The notes below the pieces were generated by a model. That model searched no databases and was not told where the DNA came from. It saw nothing but the letters and a program-made list of their open reading frames with translations. From a virus, in IMG/VR virus record IMGVR_UViG_3300043425_000403, positions 1 to 42,897 of that record: a DNA stretch of 42,897 nucleotides; one strand, given 5' to 3'. This document shows, piece after piece, positions 11,968-38,765 of this stretch. Position numbers and translations under genes: made by a program. Every line of letters starts with the position of its first letter. Position 1 is the first letter of the stretch.

Positions 11968-11990
11968 AGTGCGCCCATTAAGGTAGCAGT
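11968..11990. promoter_or_regulatory. Dyad operator upstream of the protease-capsid operon
   Basis: Half-sites AGTGCGCCC and GGTAGCAGT are separated by 5 bases, a match to the dyad AATGCTACC-N5-GGTAGCATT found at seven other places. It lies 14 bases before the protease start codon, just downstream of a good minus-strand promoter. A bound repressor would block initiation or early elongation. Confidence 0.65.
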
Positions 11991-12002
11991 TTATTTCGTG
12001 CA

Positions 12003-12030
12003 ATCATAGCCGAATCAATGGCTTTGTCTA
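12003..12030 (-). promoter_or_regulatory. Sigma70-like promoter for the protease-capsid operon
   Basis: On the minus strand TAGACA (5/6 to the -35 consensus) and TATGAT (5/6 to the -10 consensus) are spaced by 16 bases. Transcription would start a few bases before the dyad at 11968-11990 and read the protease, capsid and tail genes. It lies in the 110-base gap between two minus-strand genes. Confidence 0.6.
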
Positions 12031-12063
12031 TGCTCAGATTCTAGCCGCCAATTTGAGGTGCAT

Positions 12064-12381
12064 TTACACCCACGGCAACGCGGGCCGACCAAACGATGCC
12101 GAGGCAATCATGTAATCAAGCATTTGTTGCATAAACGGTTTGGACGCTTGCGCATCTATCACCGAATCCACCCATCCCAACACCTTCGCCTCGGTCAAGT
12201 CGTTGTAAGGCGTAAAGTCGTCCACGTCGGCGTCACCCAACGGCGCGGTGATGCTCATGGATGCCGTCGTTCCCGAATCGCTCGCGGTCAACGAGCAATC
12301 GACCTCTTTCACCACATTGACCAACGCCCCAACCGTTTCGGTTCGCATTGCCAAAATCAACACGCTGAAAATCGCCGCCAT
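12064..12381 (-). CDS. Small conserved phage protein of unknown function
   Basis: A 105-aa protein ending the fibre cassette. It has a beta-rich N-terminal half (VNVVKEVDCSLTASDSGTTAS) and a segment DFTPYNDLTEAKVLGWVDSVID, which I recognise from small proteins of many phage structural modules without an assigned role. It follows the S74-type fibre by 9 bases, so it is probably made with it and could be a structural or assembly accessory. Confidence 0.7.
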   Translation of the reverse strand: MAAIFSVLILAMRTETVGALVNVVKEVDCSLTASDSGTTASMSITAPLGDADVDDFTPYNDLTEAKVLGWVDSVIDAQASKPFMQQMLDYMIASASFGRPALPWV

Positions 12382-12390
12382 TCGAGCCTC

Positions 12391-13548
12391 TTAGTTTTCC
12401 AGTTTTGCCAATCGTTGTTCGAGTTGAACCACCCGCTCGGCCAGCGCAATTGCTGAAACCAATGCGGCGTTGCCATAGGCGACGGACAACTTGCCGTCGG
12501 CCCCCATCATCACGGCGTCTTCCAGTACCCAACGCAACGATTGAGCGGAAACACCCACTTGCGTCGCTTCAATGTCGAGGCGGTCATAAATGCCGTGCTT
12601 CACGTTGGCAAGCATCTCGACAAAGTTGCGTTGCAACGGACGCCAATTGGTTTTCAGCGTTTCGTCGGAGTTGCCAGTTACGTTGCCGACAACGGTCAAG
12701 TTTTGCGAGGTGTCGAGGGTCGCCGCCAACACGTTGTTCGTGTAGAACGCGATCGGCAAATATGTGCCCGTGCCGTTCTTGGACGAGCGCAATTGCATCT
12801 CACCCGCGCCGATGTAGATTTGCGCCGTTGATGCGTTTGCCACGTCGGGGCCGTTGGCTACTGTCCACGCCGCCGCGCCGCCTGTGCCGTTCGGGATGGC
12901 GATAATGCTTGTCACCCCGTTGACCGTGTTCGTTTGAAACATCAAGCGGCTTGCCAACGTCGCGTTGCTGAAATCGCCTGTGATGCGTGCGCTCGCGCTG
13001 GCGAAGTTGAAGCCCGTCGCGTTGATGGTGACGTTGGTCGTCGCCCCCGAAACCGCCGAACCGATGTTGACGTTGGTCGTCGAGCCACTTGCGCCCGCCG
13101 TGCCGACGTTGATCGTCTTGGTGTTGCCCGACAGCGTTGCGCCACCGCCAAGCGTGCTTGACGAGTTCGCGGTGGACATGCCGAAGAAGCCCGCCGCGTT
13201 GTTGAACGACACCGAACCCGCAAAACTTTGCGAGAAGTTGCCAACGTGCGCAAGGGTCGCGCTGACGTTGGGAAGTGTGAACGTCTGCGTCGTACCCGTG
13301 CCAATGGTCGCGGCATCAAACTTGGCGATCTTGGTGTTGTCTACGTTGTCGAAGATCGCAAACAAGCTGTCGTCGAATGTGCTGCCGCCACCCCCACCAC
13401 CGCCAATGGTGACAACCACCCCGCCCGCGTCTTTGGTATATAGCAGTTTGTCCGCTAAGTTGATGGCGATTTCGCCAATCTGCAAATCGGTGGAAAGCGG
13501 CACTTTGCCCGCTACCGACGAACGCTTGGGGATGATGATGTTGCTCAT
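12391..13548 (-). CDS. Fibre protein with C-terminal intramolecular chaperone (peptidase S74-like)
   Basis: A 385-aa protein. The N-terminus (MSNIIIPKRSSVAGKVP ... GEIAINLADKLLYTK) resembles the Mtd-type adapter also seen in the next upstream gene. The middle is low-complexity beta-helix-like sequence rich in Thr, Ser, Gly and Asn. From Ser294 (SDETLKTN) the sequence fits the self-cleaving S74 chaperone domain, with the Ser-Lys dyad at the start, GVSAQSLRWVL, and a final coiled coil (ALAERVVQLEQRLAKLEN). This domain trimerises fibres and then cuts itself off. It lies in the capsid module rather than with the tail genes. Confidence 0.85.
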   Translation of the reverse strand: MSNIIIPKRSSVAGKVPLSTDLQIGEIAINLADKLLYTKDAGGVVVTIGGGGGGGSTFDDSLFAIFDNVDNTKIAKFDAATIGTGTTQTFTLPNVSATLAHVGNFSQSFAGSVSFNNAAGFFGMSTANSSSTLGGGATLSGNTKTINVGTAGASGSTTNVNIGSAVSGATTNVTINATGFNFASASARITGDFSNATLASRLMFQTNTVNGVTSIIAIPNGTGGAAAWTVANGPDVANASTAQIYIGAGEMQLRSSKNGTGTYLPIAFYTNNVLAATLDTSQNLTVVGNVTGNSDETLKTNWRPLQRNFVEMLANVKHGIYDRLDIEATQVGVSAQSLRWVLEDAVMMGADGKLSVAYGNAALVSAIALAERVVQLEQRLAKLEN

Positions 13549-13560
13549 TGGTATCTACCT

Positions 13561-14828: not shown

Positions 14829-15089
14829 TTAAAAATTGCCGCCGTCGGTCAAGTTGGCTTGTGGATTGTTCACCCACTCTTGCGATTGAAATTGCAGAAC
14901 GTCTAAATTCTGCGGATTGGTTAGGTTGACGACATAGCCGCCAAGTTTGCCGTTTGAATCGTCACCCTTTGGGCCTTGTGGCCCAACCGCTGTGACTGAA
15001 ACTTGTGGCTTTGTGGTGAGTACATCGACGGTCGTGCCTTGGTCTACGACCTGCACAACCTGTTTGATCGTTTTGACTTCGACGTTCAT
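14829..15089 (-). CDS. Small fibre-like protein with a collagen-like stub
   Basis: An 86-aa protein starting MNVEVKTIKQVVQVVDQG. It has one short collagen-like element (VGPQGPKGDDS, about residues 33-43) and a C-terminus (NLDVLQFQSQEWVNNPQANL...DGGNF) like the repeat units of phage head and tail fibres. Its ATG overlaps the stop of the gene before it (ATGA). It probably pairs with the neighbouring 116-aa protein as a base or adapter for the fibres. Confidence 0.7.
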   Translation of the reverse strand: MNVEVKTIKQVVQVVDQGTTVDVLTTKPQVSVTAVGPQGPKGDDSNGKLGGYVVNLTNPQNLDVLQFQSQEWVNNPQANLTDGGNF

Positions 15090-15436
15090 CGCGTCACCTC
15101 GGCGTCAATGGTAAATGCGCCCTCCAACAAGCGGGTCACTTGCCCGCCGCTGCTACGCATTTCGAGGTCGTACACATACACGCCCGCTGGCAACTGCGCA
15201 GTGGCTTCGGGGGCAACGTCAAACATGATCGTGCCCAAGTTGCCGCCCAACACAATCGTGTCGTCGTCGGTGCTGAATGTGGCGATCACGTCGGTCGAAC
15301 CTTTGGAGGGGCGCACTTGCATCTTTGCGGAGTACCCGAGCAAGTTGATTGGGGTTTGGTCGGGGTTGCGCCAAGTCACGACGAGATTAAACGTCGCGCC
15401 TTGCTCCAAGACCATTTTGTATAACCCTGCACTCAT
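15086..15436 (-). CDS. Beta-sandwich structural protein (BppU N-domain-like)
   Basis: A 116-aa protein. I use the ATG at 15436, which overlaps the stop of the nuclease gene (ATGA); the open frame extends further upstream without support. The pattern LEQGATFNLVVTWRNPDQTPINLLGYSAKMQVR and LPAGVYVYDLEM resembles the Ig-like N-terminal domain of upper baseplate proteins, and is common in small virion proteins next to fibres. It is probably an attachment module for the fibre cassette. Confidence 0.7.
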   Translation of the reverse strand: MSAGLYKMVLEQGATFNLVVTWRNPDQTPINLLGYSAKMQVRPSKGSTDVIATFSTDDDTIVLGGNLGTIMFDVAPEATAQLPAGVYVYDLEMRSSGGQVTRLLEGAFTIDAEVTR

Positions 15437-15771
15437 AAATTGCCCCCGATCGCGTGATTTGCTGCCCCGATGGTAGCATTTCCACCCCATCCAATCATCA
15501 TATTTGACCACTCCAACAACTCCAACTCGGAGCCGTGGTTGCGCTCGAAAGACTTTTTGCCAGCGTGGACGGCTTCACCGTTTGGCCCGTGTTGGTGGTG
15601 ATACGGGCAAAGGCCAATCGTTTGATCGTCGGTATTGCGGCGGTTTGGCACTCGTCCCGTGAGCAAATGGTGGATGGCGGGCGGCGTTGGGCCTAACCCC
15701 TCGCGCATACACACGCAGCACCCCAAATCGACGAGGCGCGAATAACGATCGTCGCGTTCGCTCTTGGTCAT
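15433..15771 (-). CDS. HNH nuclease, Ref-like (RecA-dependent nuclease family)
   Basis: A 112-aa protein with Cys18, Cys19 and Cys21, His34-His35 (AIHHLLTGR), then DDQTIGLCPYHHQHG (Cys55, His58, His59, His61), HAGKKSFERNHG and ELELLEW. This matches the P1 Ref / recombination-enhancement nuclease pattern. Known Ref cuts DNA where RecA forms displacement loops. Its start and stop both overlap neighbours by ATGA, so it is embedded in the head operon. A perfect half of the repeated dyad operator lies inside its 3' end. Confidence 0.8.
   Translation of the reverse strand: MTKSERDDRYSRLVDLGCCVCMREGLGPTPPAIHHLLTGRVPNRRNTDDQTIGLCPYHHQHGPNGEAVHAGKKSFERNHGSELELLEWSNMMIGWGGNATIGAANHAIGGNL
15458..15480. 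promoter_or_regulatory. Dyad operator inside the 3' end of the Ref-like gene
   Basis: TTTGCTGCC and GGTAGCATT are separated by 5 bases (CCGAT). The second half is a perfect half-site. Although in coding sequence, it lies 22 bases upstream of the start of the fibre-cassette gene at 15436, so it could act on an internal promoter or block read-through. Among the eight copies this one is the least certain because coding constraint could explain part of it. Confidence 0.45.
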
Positions 15772-18736: not shown

Positions 18737-20190
18737 TATCCGCCATTCGCTTCTCGCATCTTCCGCGCTTCTTCGGCGTAGTAATCCAACAGACCTGTTG
18801 AACCACCGCCTCGGGCAAAGTAGTTAAGCGCTTGCGTCGTGCTGTCCACGTCGTCGTCATGCGCTGCGTTTGGAAACGTGCCCAACTGCGCGATGTAATC
18901 AAGCAACCAAGGCGCTTCTTCGGGAAGGAAAACACGACCGCTTTCTATCAACGGCGTCGTCGCGTGCGCACGAGAAACTTTGTCGCTGTCAACCTGAATG
19001 GCAACGACGGGCAATTTAGTGTCGCGCCTTAGTTCTTGGATAAGGCTTTGGCCGCTGGCCTTGTCTTCAACCAAGATGGCGTTCGGCTTGTGCGTGTTGG
19101 CGAGATTGATGGCTGTGCGCTTCAACTCGGGGTATTCCATTTTGTCTTTGAAGCGGTCGATTAGGTAGTAACCCGCATCGCACTCAGCCCAAGTAGTACA
19201 AACGGAGTAGTCGTTTTGCTCTTTGACCTTAAACGAGGTGTCCCAAGACTGAATGATGCGCTTGACCTTCGGCAGTGCCGAGTAATAGCGCCACCATGCC
19301 TCTTTGAAGATGCCACCGCCCAACGGTGCGGGCCGTTGCATGTACTGCCCCGCGAACACATAAGGGTTGGTTCGCTCCATCGTGCGCAACTCGTCGATCG
19401 AGTGCTTCAACGGCCAAAGCGCCTCGCCCGCGTCGTTAATGGCGGGGATGTTGACGTGTTCCCACTTCTCGCCGTTGCCGCCCGCCAACAAGAAGCCCGA
19501 AAGGTCGTCTTCGTGCAAGCGTTGCATGATGAGAATGATTGGCGTGTTCTTTGGGTCGTTCTTACGGCTTTCGAGCGTGTTACCAAACCAAGTGATGACG
19601 TTTTTGCGCATGGTGTCGCTCGTCGCCTCGTCTGCCTTGTGCGGGTCGTCGATCACGATGGCCCCGCCAAAGCCCTCGCGCAGCTTGCCAGCGCCAAAGC
19701 CCGTGATCGAACCGCCCGAGCCTTGGGCATAGACCACGCCGCCCTCGGTGGTGCGCCAATCCGACTTGGCACTTGATGATTCGCTAATGTGGGTCTTTGG
19801 AAAGCAAAGGTTGAACAAAGGCGTGCGCACCAAGTCGCGCACCTGTGAGGCGTTGTTGCTGGCGAGCGTGCCCGAATAACTCGTGTGAATAAATTCGGCG
19901 TCGGGGTTCATGCCCATGCACCACGCAATGAAGTTCACCACCGCGATCTCGGTCTTGGAGTAGCGCGGGGGAATATTCAAGATCAACCGCTTGGTTTCGC
20001 CACGGTAGACCCGCATTAGGGCGGCAAAGATCAAGTCGTGGTGGTAGTTGTTGACCCACCGATAGCCCTTGCGCTCCAAGAAGGCCAAACGGGTAAACAG
20101 GGCCAACCCGTTGCGCGGGTCTACAACGTCGCGCACTTGGGCCATGAGCGCGATGCGCTCGGCCTTGGTTCGAATGGTCTTCGAAAACAT
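18736..20190 (-). CDS. terL: Terminase large subunit
   Basis: A 484-aa protein starting at the ATG that overlaps the small-subunit stop (ATGA). The ATPase domain has NIPPRYSKTE (Walker A-like, about 72-81) and GAIVIDDPHK (Walker B, Asp181-Asp182). The RuvC-like nuclease domain shows SWDTSFK, LVEDKASGQSL and HDDDVDST. These are the expected motor and nuclease motifs of TerL. It packages DNA into the prohead through the portal. The genome layout suggests headful packaging, but that is inference. Confidence 0.95.
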   Translation of the reverse strand: MFSKTIRTKAERIALMAQVRDVVDPRNGLALFTRLAFLERKGYRWVNNYHHDLIFAALMRVYRGETKRLILNIPPRYSKTEIAVVNFIAWCMGMNPDAEFIHTSYSGTLASNNASQVRDLVRTPLFNLCFPKTHISESSSAKSDWRTTEGGVVYAQGSGGSITGFGAGKLREGFGGAIVIDDPHKADEATSDTMRKNVITWFGNTLESRKNDPKNTPIILIMQRLHEDDLSGFLLAGGNGEKWEHVNIPAINDAGEALWPLKHSIDELRTMERTNPYVFAGQYMQRPAPLGGGIFKEAWWRYYSALPKVKRIIQSWDTSFKVKEQNDYSVCTTWAECDAGYYLIDRFKDKMEYPELKRTAINLANTHKPNAILVEDKASGQSLIQELRRDTKLPVVAIQVDSDKVSRAHATTPLIESGRVFLPEEAPWLLDYIAQLGTFPNAAHDDDVDSTTQALNYFARGGGSTGLLDYYAEEARKMREANGG

Positions 20191-20753
20191 CAACCATTCG
20201 CGGTTTGATGGATGCGGCGCATCGCGGCTTCAACGTCGCCCATGTCCACCACACCCATTGGGTCGTCTTCCAACTCCAAGTTGGCGTTCTTGACGATCTC
20301 CTTGTTGGCCGACAAGAGGTTGAGCCCGATCGTGCTGGCGTCGTTTGCCATCTTGGTGAGTACCGCCACGTCGCGCAACATGTCCATGCTCTTGCTCGGG
20401 TCGGCGTCATCGACCTTGGCGACTTGGCTGTTGGCGATCGCTGAAAGCCTGTGCGCGGTGGCCGCTCCCATTTGAGCCGCACCAGCCAAGCTGTCGCTGA
20501 TTGACCGTAACCTCGCTGCGAGGGTATGCGCGGAAATTTGCGCGGAAATAGGCAACGAGGCAATCGTTCGTTCGGCTGCAACCAGCGCCGTTGCTGCGTT
20601 TCGGATTTCCGCGACGGGCGTGGTTTTGCGTTGGCGAATGGAAGATTCAGCCACCCCGTATTCGCGGGCAAGTGCCCGAATTGATTCGCCTTCGACCATT
20701 CGCCGTTCGACGATTAGCCATTGCTCTGCGGTGAGTTTTGATTTGCGACCCAT
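20190..20753 (-). CDS. terS: Terminase small subunit-like DNA-binding protein
   Basis: A 187-aa protein beginning MGRKSKLTAEQW. This ATG is preferred over an upstream TTG because it starts the helix-turn-helix domain: IVERRMVEGESIRALAREYGVAESSIRQRK, about residues 14-43. A long helical region follows (about 50-150), probably the oligomerisation core, then an acidic tail (LELEDDPMGVVDMGDVE). It lies directly upstream of terL with overlapping stop and start, and should select the packaging site. Confidence 0.85.
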   Translation of the reverse strand: MGRKSKLTAEQWLIVERRMVEGESIRALAREYGVAESSIRQRKTTPVAEIRNAATALVAAERTIASLPISAQISAHTLAARLRSISDSLAGAAQMGAATAHRLSAIANSQVAKVDDADPSKSMDMLRDVAVLTKMANDASTIGLNLLSANKEIVKNANLELEDDPMGVVDMGDVEAAMRRIHQTANG

Positions 20754-20946
20754 AAGTGCGCGGATATTAACAGAGGCCAACAAAGGCCCGACGCATAGGT
20801 GCGCAGAAAAAAAGCCTTTTCATTCGTTGTTTTGAAGCAACGCTTCGCAAATATATTTACAAGATTTAGGGTCTTCACTAACGAAACGCTACCTTTTTGG
20901 AATTATGATTGCGTCATAGCAACCAAACACCACGAAGGAAAACCAA
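20754..20946. promoter_or_regulatory. Divergent control region between late (minus) and first early (plus) operons
   Basis: A 193-base region without genes, AT-rich around 20850-20880. It holds a plus-strand candidate promoter (TTGAAG at 20832, TATTTA at 20854, spacer 16), a small GAAGC/GCTTC hairpin near 20834, a copy of the dyad operator at 20885-20907, and a TATGAT box at 20904-20909. The leader CACCACGAAGGAAAA before the first plus gene is shared with other early genes. Promoter calls are tentative. Confidence 0.5.
20885..20907. promoter_or_regulatory. Dyad operator before the first early operon
   Basis: AACGCTACC, spacer TTTTT, then GGAATTATG. The first half matches 8 of 9 and the second half is weak. 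The second half overlaps a TATGAT box, so bound repressor could cover a -10 element. It lies 39 bases upstream of the first plus-strand gene. Confidence 0.6.
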
Positions 20947-21132
20947 ATGACACAAACAACGATCAACGGCAAGAAATACACGGTCGCCAACATTGAAGCG
21001 ATCGACGGCGCACTTGGCGCAGACATGCAAAAGCGTGGATTCGAAGCGGCGTTCTATACGCTGACAGGCCCACGCGGGGGCGCAATCGTTTGTTGGAAGT
21101 CTGCGAAGACGGGCGAATTTAGCAAGCTGTAA
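20947..21132 (+). CDS. Small hypothetical protein, first gene of early operon 1
   Basis: A 61-aa protein (MTQTTINGKKYTVANIEAI...) with a clear Shine-Dalgarno (AAGGAAA). The middle has YTLTGPRGGAIVCWKSAKTG, suggesting a small compact alpha/beta domain. I do not recognise it. As the first gene after the divergent control region it is likely expressed early. Small proteins in this position often alter host functions, but nothing in the sequence shows that here. Confidence 0.75.
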   Translation: MTQTTINGKKYTVANIEAIDGALGADMQKRGFEAAFYTLTGPRGGAIVCWKSAKTGEFSKL

Positions 21133-21174
21133 GAAATCGGGGCCACGGCCCTATCACCACGAAAGGAAATCAAA

Positions 21175-21321
21175 ATGAACCAATTCACTCAACACACCGA
21201 CGTTCGGGCAATCAATCGCCTGTTGTTCACCCGCAAGCATGGCAAGACGCTCGACGTTGTTGCCGCCTTGGTGATCGGTGCGGGCTTGGCCTTGGCCCTT
21301 GTCCAATGGTGGTCGGCATGA
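21175..21321 (+). CDS. Small single-pass membrane protein (48 aa)
   Basis: An ORF starting MNQFTQHTDVRAINRLL after a strong Shine-Dalgarno (AAAGGAAA) and ending WWSA. Residues about 27-47 (LDVVAALVIGAGLALALVQW) form one likely transmembrane helix. Its stop overlaps the next start (ATGA). The role is unknown. It is one of two tiny membrane proteins in this operon. Confidence 0.7.
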   Translation: MNQFTQHTDVRAINRLLFTRKHGKTLDVVAALVIGAGLALALVQWWSA

Positions 21322-21518
21322 GCGCCCGCGAGTACGACAACGCCTTGCACATGATGGAGGTCATCGGCGGCAGCTTCGTCAAAGCGTTGGCAAATCTCTA
21401 CTACTGCGCCGACAGCAACAACAAACGACGCCTCCTTGCCGCCTTCCCCGAGTATTTCGAGAAGTACGAAGCGCAATACAAGGCCCACGTCGCCCAATCG
21501 AAAGGCGATGCGGCATGA
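21318..21518 (+). CDS. Small hypothetical helical protein (66 aa)
   Basis: It starts at the ATG overlapping the previous stop: MSAREYDNALHMMEVIGG. It looks all-helical (SFVKALANLYYCADSNNKRRLLAAFPEYFEKYEAQY). It is coupled by ATGA overlaps on both sides, which supports it as a gene. No family recognised. Confidence 0.72.
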   Translation: MSAREYDNALHMMEVIGGSFVKALANLYYCADSNNKRRLLAAFPEYFEKYEAQYKAHVAQSKGDAA

Positions 21519-21784
21519 GCGAGATGGCCGAAATTTGGGGCGACATGCGGGCGCACAGCCAGCAAAAAAAGCGCTCCAACATGGCGTCGTCAACCGCGAT
21601 GCTTGAACACAACGCAATCCCGTTCGTGGTTCACAACGGCGGCGTCCACTTGGTACTCACCAAGGGCAACCAAACGATCGACTATTGGCCGAGTACGGGC
21701 CTTTGGTGGATTCGTGGCACATCCAACAAACGCCGAGGCGTCAAGCGCCTGTTGGCCTACATGAAAGCGAAGGCAAACCAATGA
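21515..21784 (+). CDS. Conserved small phage protein (89 aa)
   Basis: It starts at the ATG overlapping the previous stop: MSEMAEIWGDMRAHSQQKKR. The C-terminal half (HLVLTKGNQTIDYWPSTGLWWIRGTSNKRRGVKRLL) resembles a short domain I have seen in many phage early regions without known function. The basic C-terminus may bind nucleic acid; that is inference. It is coupled to the next gene by ATGA. Confidence 0.75.
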   Translation: MSEMAEIWGDMRAHSQQKKRSNMASSTAMLEHNAIPFVVHNGGVHLVLTKGNQTIDYWPSTGLWWIRGTSNKRRGVKRLLAYMKAKANQ

Positions 21785-21897
21785 CCATCATCAAAACCAT
21801 TGCGATCACCTTGGCCGTGGTCTTTGCCGTCGAAGTGGCGATTGTCGGCGCGTACCTTTCCCAAGCCCCCCGCACCTACAAGTGCGAAAAACTCTAA
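21781..21897 (+). CDS. Very small membrane protein (38 aa)
   Basis: MTIIKTIAITLAVVFAVEVA begins the protein, which is mostly one hydrophobic helix (about residues 4-27) followed by a short basic tail with one Cys. It starts at an ATG overlapping the previous stop. The tight coupling supports it; the role is unknown. Confidence 0.65.
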   Translation: MTIIKTIAITLAVVFAVEVAIVGAYLSQAPRTYKCEKL

Positions 21898-21917
21898 AAC
21901 TCACCCGAAAGCATCAA

Positions 21918-22250
21918 ATGAACACCAAACACGCTTCCACCTTCGTGCGGTTTCTTTCCGCGACCAATGCAACGACACTGCCGTGCGATCTCGTGGCCCG
22001 CGCCCTGTTGCACGTCATAGCCGCACGCGGCGACGACCACATGACCGTCACCGAGGTGATGGCCCAAAGCGCGATCGCATCCCCTGCCAGCTTGCACCGC
22101 AAACTCGACGACCTGATTGCCTTTGGCTTGGTGACGCTCACCCACCGAGGCGCGAACCGTCGCACCAAGTACGTTGTGCCGACCAAAGTGGCCGAGGCGT
22201 ACTTTCACACGATGGGCAAGGCGATGATCGAAGCGGGGGCGGCAGCGTGA
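21918..22250 (+). CDS. Winged-helix DNA-binding protein (MarR-like)
   Basis: A 110-aa protein starting MNTKHASTFVRFLS; I prefer this ATG over one 36 bases upstream, which overlaps the previous gene. Residues about 40-95 (DHMTVTEVMAQSAIASPASLHRKLDDLIAFGLVTLTHRGANRRTKYVVPT) have the helix-turn-helix and beta-wing pattern of MarR-type regulators. It may regulate early transcription, or act as a replication or partition factor. The fold is well supported; the target is unknown. Confidence 0.78.
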   Translation: MNTKHASTFVRFLSATNATTLPCDLVARALLHVIAARGDDHMTVTEVMAQSAIASPASLHRKLDDLIAFGLVTLTHRGANRRTKYVVPTKVAEAYFHTMGKAMIEAGAAA

Positions 22251-22438
22251 CCGACAAGACGCCACCCCGCAAGGGCTACACATGCCCCGATTGCAAGACG
22301 CATCACGATTTCAGCGCTTGGGTTTATGCCCATTGGTCGATTGAACTTACCCACCGCTGCGACTGCGGCGTGAAAAACACGATTCTCAAAGGCGAAGTGA
22401 TCGACACCGCCAAACAACACGAAAGCCAATCAAAATGA
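22247..22438 (+). CDS. Small zinc-ribbon protein (63 aa)
   Basis: It starts at a GTG overlapping the previous stop (GTGA). Cys13, Cys16, Cys38 and Cys40 (CPDC ... CDC) form a likely zinc site. The sequence between them (HDFSAWVYAHWSIELTHR) is strand-like. It is coupled to the clamp-like gene downstream by ATGA. It could be a small DNA-binding or adaptor protein. Confidence 0.72.
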   Translation: MTDKTPPRKGYTCPDCKTHHDFSAWVYAHWSIELTHRCDCGVKNTILKGEVIDTAKQHESQSK

Positions 22439-23091
22439 AACTCAACATTAACTCCCGCCTCTTTGCCGCCGTTGGCAAGTTCAAGGCGTCTTCGGATATT
22501 CGTTACTACCTGAACGGCGTGTACGTCGAGCCGATCGCCTCTGGCGGCGTGCTGATTGCCGCCACCAACGGCCACGCGCTAGGGTTGTGGAAAGACGCCG
22601 ACGGGCTCGTTGAGCGTCCCGCAATCTTGCGCACAAGTCCAAAGCTGTTGGCGGCTTGCGTAGCCAAAAACGCCGCGTTTCTGCAATTGATCGAAGACCG
22701 CTTAACCGTGACCGAGAAACTTGGTTTCGAGGTGTACGTTCAACCGCGACGTGAAGGTTGGGAGATTCAAGGCACCTTTCCCAACGTAATGCGGGTTATC
22801 CCCAAGACGGAAGCAACGCCAACGCTGTTCGACGGGTTGAATCCGACTTACGTCAGCCGCGTGACGGACGCGTTGAAGGTCGGCACAAACAACTCGAAGT
22901 ATGGTTGCAGCGTGTCATTCAACCAGCCCGAGAAGAACAGCGGCATCGTGGTGACGAGCAACAGCGCCGAGGCGCACAACTTCTTGGCCGTAATCATGCC
23001 GTTGCGTGATGCCGTGTCACACCAACCGACGTGGTTGCAAGCAATGAAGGCAGACGCAGAGGCCGAAGCCAAGAAAGGGGCCGAAGCATGA
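22435..23091 (+). CDS. Sliding-clamp-like protein (DnaN-like domain)
   Basis: A 218-aa protein. The segment GVYVEPIASGGVLIAATNGHALGLWKD (about 29-54) matches the strand-turn-strand pattern (ATDGhrL-type) of bacterial beta clamps. Further strands at 93-115 and 160-185 (YGCSVSFNQPEKNSGIVVTSNSAEAHNFLAVIMPLR) fit the second half of a clamp domain. At 218 aa it covers fewer domains than a host DnaN of about 370 aa, so it may form a higher-order ring or bind the host clamp loader. The window encodes no DNA polymerase. Confidence 0.75.
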   Translation: MKLNINSRLFAAVGKFKASSDIRYYLNGVYVEPIASGGVLIAATNGHALGLWKDADGLVERPAILRTSPKLLAACVAKNAAFLQLIEDRLTVTEKLGFEVYVQPRREGWEIQGTFPNVMRVIPKTEATPTLFDGLNPTYVSRVTDALKVGTNNSKYGCSVSFNQPEKNSGIVVTSNSAEAHNFLAVIMPLRDAVSHQPTWLQAMKADAEAEAKKGAEA

Positions 23092-23375
23092 CCAAGGTTT
23101 TGACGCCCGAAGCGCAAGCCGACCGCGACGAGTTCGACGCGACGTTTGCGAACAGCGGTTGCGCTTGCCACATATCGCCGCCGTGCAACTTTTGTGTCCA
23201 CGCTGGCAACCCTGACAACCAAGCGGAAGACGAAGACGCTTGGATGGAAGACGACGAAGACGAGATTTGCTCGGGTTGCAGCGGTTCGGGCGAGGGGATG
23301 CACGACGGTTCGAATTGCTACAAATGCCACGGCAGCGGCGTCGAGCCGCGTGAAAGGCAAGACGATGATTGTTGA
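23088..23375 (+). CDS. Acidic zinc protein with DnaJ-like CxxCxGxG motifs
   Basis: A 95-aa protein starting at the ATG overlapping the clamp-like gene stop. Cys61-x2-Cys64-SGSG and Cys77-x2-Cys80-HGSG reproduce the DnaJ-type cysteine repeats. Cys25, Cys27, Cys33 and Cys36 may form a second site. A very acidic stretch (AEDEDAWMEDDEDE, about 46-59) lies between. It probably binds zinc and a partner protein. No specific role recognised. Confidence 0.72.
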   Translation: MTKVLTPEAQADRDEFDATFANSGCACHISPPCNFCVHAGNPDNQAEDEDAWMEDDEDEICSGCSGSGEGMHDGSNCYKCHGSGVEPRERQDDDC

Positions 23376-23478
23376 GCCACCCAAGAACGCGACGTGGCCG
23401 TTTCCGTCGCACCCAATCCCAACAGGCGGCAAGCCGCCGCGATTCAACCCCAACAACTTTGAAGATGCACCACTATGA
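23365..23478 (+). CDS. Very small Pro/Asn-rich protein (37 aa)
   Basis: MIVEPPKNATWPFPSHPIPT begins a 37-aa protein ending NFEDAPL. It overlaps the previous gene by 11 bases and its stop overlaps the next start by ATGA. The translational coupling supports it as a real gene despite its size. It is likely unstructured. Confidence 0.55.
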   Translation: MIVEPPKNATWPFPSHPIPTGGKPPRFNPNNFEDAPL

Positions 23479-23993
23479 CCCGAACCAATACTTTTCACAC
23501 CGTCGAAAGCCTGAAAGCCAAAACGATCGAGGTCGGCGACTGTTGGGAGTGGCAAGGCTACCTCGCAAGCAAGCGCGTTCCGCAAGTCTGCCACGGTGGA
23601 AACATGCACTCGGTGCGCCGCCTGTTTTCCGATTTGATGGGCTTGGGCTATCCCGAGGGCGGTTACATCGTGCCCAAGTGCGAAAACAAGGCGTGCGTCT
23701 ATTTCGCCCACTTCAAGCACTACACCAAAGAAAAGTTCGCGGTCTTTCGCTCCAAGCGTGCGGCCAAGAGCGTGTCGGGCAATCGGATGCGGTCAATCAA
23801 GATTTCAGCGATCAAGCGGGCGACCACGGCCAAGCTGACACAAGAGCAAGCCGACGCCATCCGACTATCGACGCGACCAAGCCGCGAGGAGGGCGCAATT
23901 TATGGGGTGGACAAAACCGTGATTTGCCGCATCCGTGCGGGCAAATCGTGGGTGAACCATGCGGGCAACCCGTTTGCGGGGTTGATGCGATGA
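23475..23993 (+). CDS. Degenerate HNH-like protein with C-terminal NUMOD-type helix-turn-helix
   Basis: A 172-aa protein. Residues 1-90 follow the layout of phage HNH nucleases (GDCWEWQGYL ... IVPKCENKACVYFAHFKHYTKEK), but the usual V-x-H-x-CDN-x-x-CVNPxHL segment reads VPKCENKACVYFAHF. The first His is replaced by Pro and the Asn-Pro by Tyr-Phe. The C-terminus (LTQEQADAIRLSTRPSREEGAIYGVDKTVICRIRAGKSW) is an intact NUMOD-type DNA-binding module. It may be a nuclease relative now used as a DNA-binding regulator. The loss of residues is seen; the new role is inference. Confidence 0.75.
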   Translation: MTRTNTFHTVESLKAKTIEVGDCWEWQGYLASKRVPQVCHGGNMHSVRRLFSDLMGLGYPEGGYIVPKCENKACVYFAHFKHYTKEKFAVFRSKRAAKSVSGNRMRSIKISAIKRATTAKLTQEQADAIRLSTRPSREEGAIYGVDKTVICRIRAGKSWVNHAGNPFAGLMR

Positions 23994-24354: not shown

Positions 24355-24361
24355 CAGGCGC

Positions 24362-24397
24362 AAAAAATCCCCAAGAGCCGAAGCCCTTGGGGGTTTT
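24362..24397. terminator. Bidirectional terminator between early operon 1 and the repressor
   Basis: CCCCAAG pairs with CTTGGGG around a 10-base GC-rich loop. The plus strand continues GTTTTCT and the minus strand continues ATTTTTTG. It lies exactly between the end of the rightward operon and the leftward repressor unit, so it can stop both. Confidence 0.82.
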
Positions 24398-26558: not shown

Positions 26559-26561
26559 ACC

Positions 26562-27166: not shown

Positions 27167-27375
27167 AGTCGATTTGCGCCCTCTGCGGGCGTCCCACGAA
27201 ACCCGCCGTACTGATCGGCAACGAAGCGATCGGGCCAAAGTGCGCACGAAACGCGGGCTTGCTGTCCATGAAAACGCCCAAGGGCAGTCGCGTCAAATTC
27301 TTGACGCATCACCTCAAAAGCGCCAAGGGGCCGCGCACCCTCGACTTATTCCCCGAACTTGAAAGCCACACATGA
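27163..27375 (+). CDS. Small zinc-binding protein (70 aa)
   Basis: It starts at a GTG overlapping the previous stop (GTGA). Cys5-x2-Cys8 and Cys27 (VKSICALCGRPTKPA ... IGPKCARNAG) suggest a zinc ribbon. The C-terminus is basic, then ends TLDLFPELESHT. It is coupled to the nuclease gene by ATGA and may be its partner. No firm function. Confidence 0.7.
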   Translation: MKSICALCGRPTKPAVLIGNEAIGPKCARNAGLLSMKTPKGSRVKFLTHHLKSAKGPRTLDLFPELESHT

Positions 27376-27719
27376 TGCACCGAAGTTTGCAAGCCCTTGG
27401 ACGCCTGAAAACGGGCGACATGAACAAGACCGAAGAAGCCTATTCGCGCACGCTCACCTACCGCATGTTTGGCGGGGATGTGGCGTGGTGGAAGTTCGAA
27501 GCGGTCAAATTGCGGCTTGCCGATAACACGTTTTACACCCCCGACTTTGCCGTGATGCTCACCGACGGGTTGATGGAGATGCACGAAGTCAAAGGCTTTT
27601 GGCAAGACGACGCCCGCGTGAAGATCAAGGTCGCGGCAAGCCTGTACCCGTTCAAGTTCGTTGCGGTAAAGCCCAAAGCGAAGAAGCACGGCGGCGGGTG
27701 GGAAATTGAAAACTTTTAA
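27372..27719 (+). CDS. DUF1064-type PD-(D/E)XK nuclease
   Basis: A 115-aa protein with NKTEEAYS near the N-terminus and FYTPDFAVM, then MEMHEVKGFWQDDARVKIKVAA. Asp58, Glu72 and Lys74 form the PD-(D/E)XK core. DUF1064 proteins are small phage endonucleases thought to resolve or trim recombination or replication intermediates. It closes the first half of operon 2, followed by a 117-base gap with a new operator. The motif is clear; the substrate is not. Confidence 0.82.
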   Translation: MMHRSLQALGRLKTGDMNKTEEAYSRTLTYRMFGGDVAWWKFEAVKLRLADNTFYTPDFAVMLTDGLMEMHEVKGFWQDDARVKIKVAASLYPFKFVAVKPKAKKHGGGWEIENF

Positions 27720-27778
27720 GCATGACATTCGCCTAAAAACAACGAAACAACTCAAAACGACGCAAAAATTGCTTGTGC

Positions 27779-27801
27779 AATGCTCCCAATGAGGTAGCAT
27801 T
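27779..27801. promoter_or_regulatory. Dyad operator before the recombination gene set (best match)
   Basis: AATGCTCCC, spacer AATGA, GGTAGCATT. The two halves mirror each other at 8 of 9 positions, the most symmetric of the eight copies. It lies 35 bases before the Bet-like gene in a 117-base intergenic gap (27720-27836), so an internal repressible promoter is likely. Confidence 0.75.
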
Positions 27802-27836
27802 ACGGTTGCTTCATTACCACCACAAAGGAAAATTCA

Positions 27837-28724
27837 ATGAACGATCTCACCACAACGGAGAAACCGCAAATGCTCCCCGCATTGCAAATGAGCGAGGCCG
27901 AGTTGGTCGAAGTGCTGGCGACGAGCCTGTACCCGAACGCCTCGGTCAACAGCATCAAGATGGTGTTGGGCTATTGCCGCGCCGCTGGCCTTGACCCGAT
28001 GCAAAAGCCCGTCCACATCGTCCCCATGTGGGATTCCAAACAAAAGGTCATGCGCGATGTGGTCATGGCGGGCATTGGCTTGTATCGCGTGCAAGCGGCA
28101 CGCTCCAACTCTTACGGCGGCATCACCGAACCCGAGTTTGGCCCCGATATGACCGAGAAGGTCGGCGGCGTCGAAATCACTTACCCGCAATGGTGCAAGG
28201 TGACGGTCAAGCGCCGTTTGCCCGACGGCTCGACCGCTGACTTTTCAGCCGTGGAGCGTTGGAAAGAAAACTATGCCACAGCGGGCAAAGACAGCGCCGC
28301 GCCAAACGCGATGTGGAAGAAACGCCCTTACGGTCAACTCGCCAAGTGCGCACAAGCCCAAGCGCTTCGAATGGCTTTCCCCGAAATCGGCTCGGCCCCA
28401 ACCGCTGACGAGATGGAAGGCAAATCGCTCGATGACGGCATGACGATCGAGGCCGAACCAACCAAGCCCGCCGTCGCGTTGCCCAAATCGCGCACAGAGG
28501 GCGCAAAAGACGCCGAGACACCCAAAGCCACACACCAACAAGAAAAGCCCGCCAGCGACGCCGCAAAACCTGTCAGCGCGGGCCAATTGAAGTGGATAGA
28601 AAACAAGGTGAAGTCGCTCGGCTTGGATTTGGACGAAGTGTTGCGCGAAAACAACGTGGAGAGTTTCGACACGCTGACGCCCGACCAATTCGACATGACC
28701 AAAGCGTATTTGATGGCGATGTAA
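27837..28724 (+). CDS. bet: Single-strand annealing protein, Bet/Red-beta-like
   Basis: A 295-aa protein. Residues about 20-190 follow the phage recombination protein Bet pattern: ATSLYPNASVNSIKMVLGYCRAAGLDPMQKPVHIVPMW, VVMAGIGLYRVQAARS, YGGITEPEFG and WKKRPYGQLAKCAQAQALRMAFP. A Lys/Ala/Pro-rich linker and a C-terminal helical domain follow. It anneals complementary single strands in phage recombination, working with the exonuclease just downstream. Good Shine-Dalgarno (AAAGGAAAA). Confidence 0.92.
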   Translation: MNDLTTTEKPQMLPALQMSEAELVEVLATSLYPNASVNSIKMVLGYCRAAGLDPMQKPVHIVPMWDSKQKVMRDVVMAGIGLYRVQAARSNSYGGITEPEFGPDMTEKVGGVEITYPQWCKVTVKRRLPDGSTADFSAVERWKENYATAGKDSAAPNAMWKKRPYGQLAKCAQAQALRMAFPEIGSAPTADEMEGKSLDDGMTIEAEPTKPAVALPKSRTEGAKDAETPKATHQQEKPASDAAKPVSAGQLKWIENKVKSLGLDLDEVLRENNVESFDTLTPDQFDMTKAYLMAM

Positions 28725-28733: not shown

Positions 28734-29309
28734 ATGGTTGAACTTCTAGAATTCGACGAGCCGACGCACACCTACACGTTCAAGGGCAAGCGCGTGCCGA
28801 GCGTGACGCAAATTCTCGGCACGTTGCACAACTTCGACGGCGTGCCTGAAAGCATCTTGCTCGCTGCGCAAGAGCGCGGCACAGCGGTTCACTTGGCTTG
28901 CGAGTTCGACGACCACGGCGACCTCGACGAATCAAGCGTTGACGACAAGATTGTTGGCTACCTCGACGCATGGCGAAAATTTCGCACAGAAATGCGCCCT
29001 TCGTGGTTGCAGATTGAAGCGCGATGCTTTCACCCCGCGTTGCATTACGCGGGCACGGTCGATCGGGTTTGCTTGATCGACGGCGTGGAATGGGTCATTG
29101 ACATTAAAACGTCGATCGCTTCACACGCCATTTGGGGTTTGCAGACTGCCGCCTACGCGCAAGCGTTGAACTTGGCGAACGCCAAGCGCGGCACGGTGCA
29201 ACTTCGCAACGACGGCACTTATCGCCTGATCGAGTGGGCCAAGAAATCCGATTGGGCCACCTTCGTTTCCCTTCTCACCATCACAAACTTTTTGGAGAAC
29301 AACAAATGA
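28734..29309 (+). CDS. RecB-type PD-(D/E)XK exonuclease
   Basis: A 191-aa protein with AVHLACEF (His53), IEARC (Glu95), AGTVDRV (Asp110), VIDIKTS (Asp123, Lys125) and LQTAAYAQAL (Gln137, Tyr141), the ordered motif set of RecB/Cas4-like nucleases. It begins 9 bases after the Bet-like gene. The pair should act as exonuclease plus annealase, making and annealing single-stranded ends. Confidence 0.9.
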   Translation: MVELLEFDEPTHTYTFKGKRVPSVTQILGTLHNFDGVPESILLAAQERGTAVHLACEFDDHGDLDESSVDDKIVGYLDAWRKFRTEMRPSWLQIEARCFHPALHYAGTVDRVCLIDGVEWVIDIKTSIASHAIWGLQTAAYAQALNLANAKRGTVQLRNDGTYRLIEWAKKSDWATFVSLLTITNFLENNK

Positions 29310-33820: not shown

Positions 33821-34039
33821 ATGGGACATGAACAAGTCTTTACGGGATGGGTGAAGCTGCGCAAGTATTGCGAGATCAGCGGCGAGACACCAAGCGGCGT
33901 TCACGCCAAGCGGCGTGCGGGCCATTTTGTTGACGGCGTACACACGAAGGTCGCTGGCGACGGGAATTTGTACGTTCACATCGGGGCGGTGCAAAAGTGG
34001 GTATCGGACGGAGCGAAAGGGGTTTGCCAACAGGCGTGA
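33821..34039 (+). CDS. xis: Excisionase-like protein
   Basis: A 72-aa protein: FTGWVKLRKYCEISGETPSGVHAKRRAGHFVDGVHTKVAGDGNLYVHIGAVQKWV. This matches the small Xis/excisionase-like winged-helix family found upstream of phage integrases. It would bend attachment-site DNA and favour excision. It overlaps the 5' end of the integrase gene, so the two are made together. Confidence 0.85.
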   Translation: MGHEQVFTGWVKLRKYCEISGETPSGVHAKRRAGHFVDGVHTKVAGDGNLYVHIGAVQKWVSDGAKGVCQQA

Positions 34040-35175
34040 CGGTGCGCAAGCACAAGCAAGCGCAAACCATCCAAATCACGTTTCAAATGGGGGCAATTCG
34101 GTGTCGTGAATCGCTGCCGCTGCCCCCAACCCCCGCCAACATCAAGTTCGCCAAGGCATTGCGCGACGAGATCATGGCAAAGATTGTTCGGGGCGTTTTC
34201 AATTACGGCGAATATTTCCCCAAGTCGCCGCGTGCCAAGAAGACCGCCAAGCCCGCCGACACGCTCACCGTCGGCGCAATGTTGGACGCCTTCATTACCG
34301 ATTCCCAAGCCGCTGTCGATCGCGGCAACATGGCCCCGTCCACGTTGGACGGCTACCGCAAGGCCGTGCGTCACCACTTGAAACCCTATTTCGGCGCAAT
34401 GCTGGCTTCGGAGGTGACAGGCGCGACGATTCGGGCTTGGGCCAAGTCGGTGACGCTCACGGCCAAGACGGTGCGAAATACGCTCATCCCCTTGCGGGCG
34501 GTGTTCTCCGATGCCATCAACGACGATGTGGTGAAGGCCAACCCGTTTGACCGCGTTGCCCTCGATCGCATCTTGGCGAAGTCGGCCACGCCCTCGACCT
34601 ACGTTGTAGACCCGTTCACGCCAACCGAGGTGGCCGCAATCTGCAACGCCGCCAAAGGCCAAGCCCGCAACTTCATCAAGTTTGCCTTTGCCACGGGGTT
34701 GCGCACCTCCGAGTTGATCGCGCTGCGTTGGTCGGACGTTGACATGAAAGCCCGAACCGTGCGCGTGCATCGCGCCTTCGTGCTGCAATTGGAGAAAGGC
34801 CCAAAGACCGTGGCGGGCAATCGGGTCGTCGAACTCGACGATCAAGCAATGGCCGCACTTGAAGCCCAACGCGAGTGGACGCTATTGCAAGGCAAACTTG
34901 TCTTTCACAACCCGCGCACGGGAAAACCGTTACTCGACGACCAAGCCGTGCGAAAGTGCATTTGGAAGCCCGCGATCGAGGCCACCGACGTGCGTTATCG
35001 CAACCCCTATCAAACGCGCCACACCTACGCGAGCACGCGCCTGTCGCAAGGCGCAAACCTGTGGTGGATGGCTGCGCAAATGGGCCACGAAGACGTTCAA
35101 ACGATCTCGCGGGTTTACGGCAAGTGGATTCCCGAAGCGGGCCAAGTTCAACAAACCAAAAAGGGCGGGGCATGA
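33997..35175 (+). CDS. int: Tyrosine integrase
   Basis: A 392-aa protein from a GTG at 33997. A second GTG at 34036 overlaps the xis stop (GTGA) and would give 379 aa. An N-terminal arm-binding domain (IRCRESLPLPPTPANIKFAK) is followed by a core-binding helical domain and the catalytic domain. In 392-aa numbering: Arg236 in TGLRTSELIALRW, a likely Lys270, Arg341 in YQTRHTYAS (Tyr replaces the usual first His of HxxR), His364 in QMGHED and Tyr374 in SRVYGKW as nucleophile. It recombines attP, just downstream, with the host tRNA gene. Confidence 0.95.
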   Translation: MGIGRSERGLPTGVTVRKHKQAQTIQITFQMGAIRCRESLPLPPTPANIKFAKALRDEIMAKIVRGVFNYGEYFPKSPRAKKTAKPADTLTVGAMLDAFITDSQAAVDRGNMAPSTLDGYRKAVRHHLKPYFGAMLASEVTGATIRAWAKSVTLTAKTVRNTLIPLRAVFSDAINDDVVKANPFDRVALDRILAKSATPSTYVVDPFTPTEVAAICNAAKGQARNFIKFAFATGLRTSELIALRWSDVDMKARTVRVHRAFVLQLEKGPKTVAGNRVVELDDQAMAALEAQREWTLLQGKLVFHNPRTGKPLLDDQAVRKCIWKPAIEATDVRYRNPYQTRHTYASTRLSQGANLWWMAAQMGHEDVQTISRVYGKWIPEAGQVQQTKKGGA

Positions 35176-37269: not shown

Positions 37270-37463
37270 TTTTCGGTTTCCTTTATCAACATCTCAGGGG
37301 GCAACAGCTTGTCGGGGCATGTGCCTTCAACCGAACAAATCGGCGGCTTGCACTCCTTCAAATCCCAATTGCGCGGGTTTTGGCAGGGGTAGCGGTAACG
37401 GTCTTCGCACTTGGTCAATCCGAACACCGTTGCGGCCACCACCACAACGAACAACAACTTCAT
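37266..37463 (-). CDS. Small Cys-rich exported protein (65 aa)
   Basis: The N-terminus MKLLFVVVVAATVFGLTKC is a signal peptide, perhaps a lipoprotein signal, although LTKC is a poor lipobox. The mature part has spaced cysteines: YRYPCQNPRNW, LKECKPPIC and GTCPDKLL. This pattern recurs in phage lysis regions. It overlaps both neighbours by ATGA. It could be a periplasmic accessory, but no function is established from sequence. Confidence 0.7.
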   Translation of the reverse strand: MKLLFVVVVAATVFGLTKCEDRYRYPCQNPRNWDLKECKPPICSVEGTCPDKLLPPEMLIKETEK

Positions 37464-37684
37464 TCTTCGCCTTTCTCGGTGATTTTCACCGTCCTTAGTA
37501 ATCGCTCCATCTTCTCGCGCTCATCACGAAGCGCAAGCGTTGCCTTTTGGTTCTCGCGTCGGTCGCGGGTGCGCTCACCGTCTTGCACCGCAAACTTCAA
37601 CATCCCCCAAAAGATGACCGTGCAAAGGCACATCACCAACGTGCCCAAAAAAATAATCAACCAAAGGTTCTCGGGCTTACGCAT
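37460..37684 (-). CDS. Small membrane-anchored coiled-coil protein (74 aa)
   Basis: It starts at the ATG at 37684 (MRKPENLWLIIFLGTLVMCL). One N-terminal transmembrane segment (about 7-27) is followed by a charged coiled coil (RTRDRRENQKATLALRDEREKMERLLRTV). It resembles an i-spanin in layout, though a full Rz/Rz1 pair exists downstream. It may partner with the Cys-rich exported protein coupled to it. Confidence 0.68.
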   Translation of the reverse strand: MRKPENLWLIIFLGTLVMCLCTVIFWGMLKFAVQDGERTRDRRENQKATLALRDEREKMERLLRTVKITEKGEE

Positions 37685-38417
37685 TTGCAACCAATCCCAT
37701 CAAAAACCAAAACCAAGCAATCAACAGCGCGGTGAAGAACACCACCACGTTGCGGTCGATGCGCTCATCACGCGCCACAAACGCCTCGGCATCACGCTTG
37801 GCTTTCTCGCGTCGCGCCTTCATTTGCCGCGCCGCTTGCCCCGCCTTCACCTTGTCTTGCATCTCCCTAAACTGCGTCCAAATCGGGCCAAGTTGCCAAG
37901 GCGCACCGCTCATCAATGTCGAGAGCGTTGGATAAGCCGCATCGAGTTCGGCTTGCAATTGCGTTAGTTCTAGTACGTCTTTTTGATTGATCTCATCCTT
38001 TCCGAAAATCTCGGTGTATCGCTGTTCGGCATACGCCTTCAAGACCCCGTAATTGTCGAACCACTCGCCGAGGTGTCCGATAAACTGTTGCACGACTTCA
38101 TCTTGGGTTGGGATGTGTTCAACGTACTCGTCGCGCTTTTTCTTTTTCGACTTGGGTTGTTCGCTTGTCGCTGCAACCGTTGGTGCTTGCGTAGGTGTTG
38201 ACGCAATTGGTCGTGCGCCTCCGAGAAGGTTCTTAATCCATCCCCAAAGGCCCGACACTTCTCTATAAAGTGCCTTGGCATCTGCAACACCGCCTTCGAC
38301 AGTTTTCTTAACGCGTTGAACTTCAACCGTGCCTTCGCGCAGAGATTCGCAACAATATTGAATCCCCGCCCACGCACCACGGAGGGCTTGCAGCGCAAGA
38401 AGGTATTCGGGCCCCAC
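37677..38417 (-). CDS. Phage protein with C-terminal membrane anchor (246 aa)
   Basis: It starts at a GTG (MGPEYLLALQALRGAWAGIQ) 1 base after the holin stop. An N-terminal helical region (REGTVEVQRVKKTVEGGVADAKALYREVSGLWGWIKNLLGG) is followed by a Thr/Pro/Ala then Lys-rich linker (about 68-95). A large helical domain and a final hydrophobic helix (VVVFFTALLIAWFWFLMGLVA) complete it. Similar long tail-anchored proteins occur in the structural or lysis regions of other phages. Role unknown. Confidence 0.7.
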   Translation of the reverse strand: MGPEYLLALQALRGAWAGIQYCCESLREGTVEVQRVKKTVEGGVADAKALYREVSGLWGWIKNLLGGARPIASTPTQAPTVAATSEQPKSKKKKRDEYVEHIPTQDEVVQQFIGHLGEWFDNYGVLKAYAEQRYTEIFGKDEINQKDVLELTQLQAELDAAYPTLSTLMSGAPWQLGPIWTQFREMQDKVKAGQAARQMKARREKAKRDAEAFVARDERIDRNVVVFFTALLIAWFWFLMGLVANA

Positions 38418-38418
38418 A

Positions 38419-38733
38419 TCACTTGATCGGTGGAAATTGGCGGGTTAGCCAGCTTTCGAACAACATCAACGCACGGCTTCCCATGTGGCCGCTGATACCG
38501 ACGGCGGCGGCGGTCATTAAGGGGTCAACATTGGCGTTGGTGAACAGGTAGAACGTAATCACGCCCGTGAACCCTGCGGTCACGATCTCGCCAATGAATT
38601 CAAGCAAGTTGAAAACACGAGCGTGGCCCGTTTGAAGTTTGCGTATGAAGTTCACAACACCCCCCATGATTGAAAGTCCAATGACCCACGCATAGGTTAT
38701 GAGCGGGATGTTTGACGGGTCTTTCTCGTGCAT
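38419..38733 (-). CDS. Holin, LydA-like (holin superfamily III type)
   Basis: A 104-aa protein with hydrophobic segments ITYAWVIGLSIMGGVVNFIRK (about 12-32) and EIVTAGFTGVITFYLF (about 49-64), plus a third, less hydrophobic segment containing AAAVGISGHMGSRAL. The FNLLEFIGEIVTAGFTGVITFY pattern matches the P1 LydA-type holin family. It is the first gene of the lysis cassette and has a dyad operator right before its start. Confidence 0.82.
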   Translation of the reverse strand: MHEKDPSNIPLITYAWVIGLSIMGGVVNFIRKLQTGHARVFNLLEFIGEIVTAGFTGVITFYLFTNANVDPLMTAAAVGISGHMGSRALMLFESWLTRQFPPIK

Positions 38734-38742
38734 CGAGCTAAT

Positions 38743-38765
38743 CTTTCTACCTTTTTGGGCGCATT
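38743..38765. promoter_or_regulatory. Dyad operator upstream of the lysis cassette
   Basis: CTTTCTACC, spacer TTTTT, GGGCGCATT. It ends 10 bases before the holin start codon and covers the likely ribosome-binding and early-transcript region. A weak minus-strand promoter (TTGGGC with TAATGC 17 bases on) overlaps its far edge. Repressor binding would keep lysis genes silent in the prophage. Confidence 0.65.

Follow-up and report, generated by a model that had tools for sequence, protein, structure and literature searches.

The virus record IMGVR_UViG_3300043425_000403 (42,897 bases, analysed at its full length and called the window here) contains a gene for a small repressor, rep, and a series of 23-bp dyads that are scattered along the genome and are probably the operators of this repressor. 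The product of rep (24608–24979, minus strand) has 123 amino acids (aa) and an XRE-type helix-turn-helix (HTH) with the recognition helix DRYLSHVK; divergently from rep lies the gene for a Cro-like protein of 74 aa (25131–25355, plus strand; phrog_35) and, with predicted operators between both genes, the arrangement is by sequence that of a lambda-like immunity region. A preliminary description of this DNA had located eight of the dyads; all of them are present where it placed them and the set is non-random. The sites are formed by two inverted half-sites around a 5-bp centre, usually with one half weaker than the other. The phage looks temperate because the window also contains a tyrosine integrase gene (34036–35175, plus strand).

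Two of the dyads (25056–25078 and 25080–25102, both on the plus strand) are 24 bp apart in the gap between rep and the cro-like gene. At the other side of rep, one arm of the dyad at 24460–24482 (minus strand) contains the stop codon of an open reading frame (ORF) of 44 aa (24464–24598, minus strand); this dyad had been set aside as lying elsewhere than before a transcription unit and it is indeed downstream of the repressor gene, but it has a place of its own, as it appears to close the repressor operon. The 44-aa ORF showed no match in Pfam; small ORFs are also found downstream of rep in two loci with related repressors, L104 (42 aa) and L105 (56 aa). The best dyad (27779–27801, plus strand) ends 36 nt upstream of the start of a recT-like gene (27837–28724, plus strand), coding for a RecT-family annealing protein. 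Two dyads precede late genes: the one at 11968–11990 (minus strand) has its first base 37 nt upstream of the start of the gene for an S78-type head maturation protease (10631–11953, minus strand), the upstream half, ACTGCTACC, being the better one, and the one at 15458–15480 (minus strand) is 22 nt upstream of the start of a phrog_1084 gene (15086–15436, minus strand; its start, MSAG, is backed by the L105 orthologue). The latter was originally considered to be inside the gene for a Ref-like RecA-dependent nuclease (15433–15771, minus strand; PF16786); although it overlaps the 3′ end of this gene, it does sit immediately before the phrog_1084 gene. The last two dyads are degenerate. That at 20885–20907 (plus strand), with one good and one poor arm, is located in the gap between an HTH gene (20190–20783), probably the small terminase gene, and a divergent run of plus-strand genes starting at 20947, whereas that at 38743–38765 (minus strand), with two middling arms, occupies the 43-bp gap upstream of a LydA-type holin gene (38419–38733, minus strand; PF16083, phrog_785).

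The consensus proposed in the preliminary description fits, within three mismatches, six of the eight dyads (11968, 15458, 24460, 25056, 25080 and 27779), but not the degenerate sites at 20885 and 38743. With up to three mismatches this consensus has 11 strand-wise matches in the window, versus 0.23 expected and a maximum of three in 100 shuffles. The eight window sites were used to build a symmetric matrix, which gave 26.8 bits to the best site (27779), 17.8 bits to that at 38743 and 14.2 bits to that at 20885, and also retrieved a previously overlooked ninth candidate (28991–29013, plus strand), which outscores 20885 with 15.6 bits and is inside the PD-(D/E)XK nuclease-like gene (Pfam) found after recT. 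Matrix scanning yielded nine matches in the window with at least 12 bits, compared to a mean of 0.8 and a maximum of three for 60 column-shuffled matrices. With a second matrix, made with 35 sites from 12 loci of relatives and excluding the window, the nine top matches were again the initial eight dyads (14.2 bits for both 20885 and 38743) plus 28991, with a drop from 14.2 to 10.8 bits after them, although this test is only partly independent because the 35 sites were picked with the window matrix. Two further sites, at positions 1129 (11.5 bits) and 42232 (11.3 bits), were dropped, since they rank 14 and 15 by the matrix from relatives. A rough gene call based on codons placed seven of the eight dyads in non-coding DNA, which makes up 15.5% of the window; this call overlooked rep and the Ref-like gene overlapped by 15458, and if this site is counted as coding the figure is six of eight (p ~0.0003).

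Seven of the nine sites contain at least one half that differs from AATGCTACC by no more than one base; six of them combine it with a weaker half. At 11968, 15458, 20885, 25056 and 25080 the better half is on the upstream side of the adjacent gene, which recalls the one-way stoperators of L5, although five sites are too few for a test. The composition of the arms also bears on whether the dyads could be RNA hairpins that act near start codons as signals for translation or termination. Several dyads are indeed 10–45 nt upstream of a start codon, and the arms of that at 27779 could pair into a stem of 9 bp with a single mismatch; nevertheless, three to five of the nine arm positions are non-complementary in eight of the nine sites, one pair of dyads is in the divergent switch region and, as indicated, the half-site consensus is kept in at least one arm of most sites. 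Poor complementarity together with a retained half-site consensus led us to reject RNA hairpins, which are a most improbable explanation for these sequences.

Searches with the repressors retrieved 14, 13 and 47 loci, and a search with the Cro family 13 loci; the repressors that we consider members of the family are around 35–62% identical to that of the window, where measured. Dyads were counted in groups of loci using the window matrix and a threshold of 12 bits, with column-shuffled matrices as controls (mean and maximum in parentheses). There were 23 dyads in 108 kb from six phage loci whose repressor contains a DRYLSH or PRYLSH helix (2.1, maximum 9), 38 in 236 kb from 14 further family loci (4.5, maximum 28) and 12 in 93 kb from six loci in genome contigs (1.6, maximum 7), which are titled Herminiimonas, Noviherbaspirillum, Keguizhuia, Burkholderiales or Proteobacteria. 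At least one dyad was found in 24 of these 26 family loci, and at least two in 16 of them; all six genome-contig loci have one or more within about 1.1 kb of rep. Conversely, 22 loci with weak repressor homologs contained a single dyad (5.9, maximum 17) and none had two, 80 RecT loci contained 20 (19.9, maximum 76; one locus with two), and 14 protease loci contained three (3.1, maximum 14; one locus with two). Therefore, the dyad tracks the repressor rather than RecT or the protease. The weak-repressor group comprises 22 of 37 loci and the protease group 14 of 17, omitting L192 and L193, with a dyad and a protease matching those from the window and L105, as well as L198, a duplicate of L197. 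The family groups omit L148, L154, L214, L216 and the second loci of the L104, L105 and L011 records, and the RecT group includes all 80 loci, also L037, L072, L095 and L100, which encode a weak repressor homolog; the repressors of L150, L151, L155 and L157 are nearly identical and not independent. A blind scan of IMG/VR DNA for the strict dyad retrieved 19 records, of which L011 encodes homologs of Rep (36% identity) and of the Cro-like protein (37%) that are divergent and have dyads between them and elsewhere.

This distribution is relevant to two other possible explanations. Dispersed palindromes can be sites for host regulators or DNA-handling signals for packaging, partition or uptake; however, such roles seem very unlikely for dyads that follow a phage repressor family instead of a RecT or protease neighbourhood, and that are present between rep and cro. 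The second explanation is that the dispersed dyads are mainly read by the Cro-like protein, and not by Rep, to damp early and late genes in lytic growth. Homologs of this protein, some of them weak (expectation value, E, up to 0.005), are beside rep in the examined phage loci with at least two dyads, and in lambda the repressor and Cro read the same operators (PMC4488713). On the other hand, the six genome-contig loci retain rep and dyads with no Cro homolog detected at E 0.01, although one of them, L133, extends only 281 bp before rep, and the half-site covaries with the recognition helix of Rep, the protein for which covariation was tested. We thus see a principal role of the Cro-like protein as improbable, while both it and Rep may bind the dyads.

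Covariation was examined with a search matrix that excluded position 4 of the half-site. Phages with R43 in the repressor (helices DRYLSH or PRYLSH) showed a G:A ratio at this position of 47:9, or 29:8 without the window, and phages with [EQ]AY[MI]SH helices a ratio of 11:56 (Fisher p ~2e-14, a value that overstates the difference because neither the sites within a phage nor the phages within a clade are independent). The ratio was mixed in the genome-contig R43 loci (17:10) and in family members with helices EAFLSH, KAFLSH or DKFVSH (L140, L217 and L219; 14:10); L139 and L149 gave no sites, and C and T at position 4 were left uncounted. These comparisons suggest that the change from DRYLSH to AYMSH in the helix goes with the change from TGCTACC to TACTACC in the half-site, and that the arginine might read the G of TGCTACC.

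The positions of certain dyads are also conserved in L105, whose repressor is 62% identical to that of the window. A dyad is found 33 nt upstream of the orthologous protease gene, versus 37 nt in the window, with sequence GCTACCTTAACGGGCGCA in L105 and GCTACCTTAATGGGCGCA in the window and otherwise diverged flanks. Likewise, the phrog_1084 gene of L105 is preceded by a dyad of 12.4 bits, whose distance to the start codon is 22 nt, as in the window. The dyad preceding the protease gene reaches 19–20 bits only in L192 and L193 (the latter being the L105 record) among 17 protease loci, and L194 has one of 12.7 bits located 108 nt upstream. L192 is a 6.8-kb IMG/VR record with a protease and a dyad identical to those of the window. 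In L104, the gap between rep and cro contains matches of 17.7 and 7.0 bits, 53 bp apart.

The AlphaFold2 model of Rep (mean predicted local distance difference test, pLDDT, of 87.8) contains the HTH, with residues 42–49 forming its second helix, and two C-terminal helices. In a comparison with VIA-align, the best structural match of the DNA-binding domain was to the SPC32H Rep protein (5d50; Z 11.4, 1.4 Å over 71 residues, 30% identity), and the following entries, including SinR, LexA-like, P22 c2 and 434 domains, had Z values of 8.3 and below. Sequence profiles matched first PaaR2 (E 0.0011) and then SPC32H Rep (E 0.0036), whereas Pfam produced no match for Rep and only a sub-cutoff match to HTH_3 for the repressor from L104. 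As modelled, Rep belongs to the XRE/Cro-CI HTH repressors, of the lambda/434/P22 fold type. Neither Pfam nor the model revealed in its 123 aa the C-terminal peptidase domain of lambda-like self-cleaving CI proteins. SPC32H-type Rep proteins are inactivated by a dedicated antirepressor, Ant. For repression by SPC32H Rep, one tetramer is said to be required (PMC9638917). A search with three family repressors against the 50,697 phage records of INPHARED (E 0.001), a collection that may omit records very near the window, found no match covering 80% of the query. Judging by titles and the beginning of abstracts, we found no paper on this repressor family, which is no claim of its absence from print.

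Several results weigh against the dyads being operators of Rep, or against such a role for all of them. A looser pattern, with 12 specified bases and up to two mismatches, occurs seven times in the window, fewer than its reversed control (12), and distinguishes most relatives only weakly; whole-record counts with it are uninformative. The window matrix finds no dyad in L146 and L150 and a single one in L133, L135, L138, L139, L149, L151, L153 and L213, whereas L195 contains two dyads although its record encodes no family repressor. A repressor is encoded in only one of the 19 records from the blind scan; a family profile search found none in the other 18, which therefore fit chance matches. 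Additionally, nine loci with a distant repressor (33% identity and a different helix; nine of 12 loci in this group) contain nine matches (1.8, maximum 9), with two in three loci. These matches equal the shuffled maximum and are three sequences repeated in near-identical loci, and therefore we rejected L106–L117 as members of the family. For Rep, Foldseek found no match at E 0.001, its best being also 5d50 with E 0.021. The covariation between helix and half-site may reflect few evolutionary events, and sigma-70-like matches in positions 20700–28000 are at chance level (3 versus 2.8 expected).

Also adverse is the weakness of certain sites in the relatives. The pair in the rep–cro gap of L105 scores only 6.8 and 11.8 bits, with a spacing of 23 bp (24 bp in the window). 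The match near the end of its rep operon has only 11.3 bits and is inside the small ORF, at +482, a distance from rep similar to that in the window; the equivalent match in L104 reaches only 8.3 bits, and the arm that contains the stop codon of the small ORF is the same as in the window. In the 24 of the 80 RecT loci that were checked, no counterpart of the recT site with more than 8 bits was found up to 200 bp from recT, and neither L104 nor L105 has a RecT match; no holin match was found in L104, L105 or L024, an empty answer that shows little. The support for the sites at recT, the holin gene, 20885 and 28991 comes from the window. It could then be argued that only the dyads of the switch region, and perhaps that at the end of the rep operon, are functional, the distal ones being decoys or remnants without regulatory effect, which would agree with the lack of conserved counterparts for the recT and holin sites and with the degeneracy of 20885 and 38743. 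However, L105 keeps the two late-gene dyads at matching distances although the flanks have diverged, and in both L147 and L152 a ParB-like/DNA methyltransferase gene is preceded by a dyad (L147:11431 and L152:12711, about 100–330 bp upstream of the called start); we consider it unlikely that the distal dyads lack any regulatory effect.

The support for operators of Rep is computational, consisting of the sites themselves, their tie to the repressor family, the late and switch positions conserved in one relative, and the covariation. The preliminary description proposed Rep as the likely ligand, and the comparison favours this, as the dyads follow the repressor family and not RecT or the protease, two late-gene positions and the switch region are conserved in L105, and the half-site varies with the helix. 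We estimate a probability of roughly 0.86 that the dyads are dispersed operators of the 123-aa XRE repressor of this phage, which would silence early and late genes in the lysogen.

Rep would bind as a symmetric dimer, with one recognition helix per TGCTACC-like half-site on either side of the 5-bp centre, and the pairing of a strong and a weak half could provide a dimeric repressor with graded operators. The two dyads between rep and cro would constitute the switch, shutting off cro and tuning rep, and the Cro-like protein might compete with Rep. The remaining dyads, other than that closing the rep operon, are just upstream of early genes (recT and the run at 20947), late genes (phrog_1084 and the protease) and the holin gene, where Rep could block initiation or act as a roadblock for elongation, at early and late genes simultaneously. 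Promoter occlusion is most likely at the switch and early genes, while the two conserved late sites lie within a co-oriented gene run, where Rep might either shut off internal promoters or form a roadblock. The site at 11968 has a TAGACA-16-TATGAT match (10/12) upstream, and those at 15458 and 20885 have TATGAT hexamers nearby; by eye these have no clear equivalent in L105 and we claim no promoter.

The window also encodes a portal protein with a Mu-F-like domain, and a megablast comparison of positions 18000–42000 with phage records gave no match. In two different phages, dyads adjoin phosphoadenosine phosphosulfate reductase-like genes (dyads at L104:6784-7105 and L158:15878-16116, genes at L104:7092-7835 and L158:16311-17054). 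L024 (IMGVR_UViG_3300023700_000002) encodes a RecT 77% identical to that of the window, whereas its examined part contains neither a family repressor nor dyads above 13.2 bits, a possible sign of exchange of the immunity module. The repressors from the six genome-contig loci (L133–L138) are 55–59% identical to that of the window and their surroundings look chromosomal, with a GH1 gene near that in L134 (Pfam) and a RecQ-like ORF, judged by eye, in L138; five of the six have a similar (by eye) unannotated gene of 214–266 aa divergently upstream. It is possible that these loci contain a domesticated repressor.

Lambda operators cluster at OR and OL, with a spacing of about 24 bp. The window resembles lambda and N15 in having divergent rep and cro with operators between them, but those of N15 also cluster at OR and OL (PMC4488713) whereas the window has further predicted sites at late and lysis genes. 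As with the stoperators of L5, there are many dispersed sites for an immunity repressor, some near rep; L5 and phiC31 together have 18–30 such sites (PMC4557955). Stoperators of the L5 clade are mostly in one orientation and vary along with the repressors (PMC6550527), and Cluster A motifs differ among relatives together with the repressor (PMC4557955, PMC6550527, PMC9283540). Unlike L5-type stoperators, which are asymmetric and bound by a monomer, the sites in the window are symmetric and number around nine, and a cro-like gene diverges from rep. The repressor sites of phiC31 are inverted repeats. This phage also has multiple dispersed sites, but its repressor gene is downstream of the structural genes and produces three isoforms (PMC4557955), in contrast with the small XRE repressor and lambda-like divergent pair of the window. 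MrpR from SPbeta is a master repressor acting on about ten scattered promoters, whose SPBRE sites were first found in silico; however, the fold of MrpR resembles that of tyrosine recombinases and the SPBRE motif spans 15 bp (PMC10516654), while Rep models as an XRE HTH. By sequence, the nine predicted sites lie at separate places, some of them conserved, and might correspond to the sites at many transcription units that one repressor has in the dispersed-operator immunity systems of phiC31 and SPbeta. It was apt to describe this dispersed set as less usual, but it is not unprecedented, since dispersed repressor sites are already known from L5, phiC31 and SPbeta; the window differs from these systems in pairing a lambda-like switch, with divergent rep and cro, with symmetric predicted sites that are scattered and include late genes.

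In many model phages of proteobacteria, the silencing of late genes is indirect, an activator or antiterminator not being supplied. If true, a repressor that also sits directly on capsid and lysis genes would add another layer to the silencing in the lysogen. The systems with dispersed sites cited above come from phages that infect mycobacteria, Streptomyces and Bacillus, and P1 is an exception. It is possible, although we advance it only tentatively, that the window exemplifies an immunity type of phages from Gram-negative hosts, as the related contigs suggest, in which a lambda-like rep/cro switch is combined with genome-wide symmetric roadblocks in the late operon, a helix residue and a half-site base coevolve, and repressor and dyads have been taken over by bacterial chromosomes. 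The natural variation found, DRYLSH versus AYMSH in the helix and TGCTACC versus TACTACC in the half-site, is suited to study how a repressor and many operators change together, a joint change that bears on the origin of new immunity groups.

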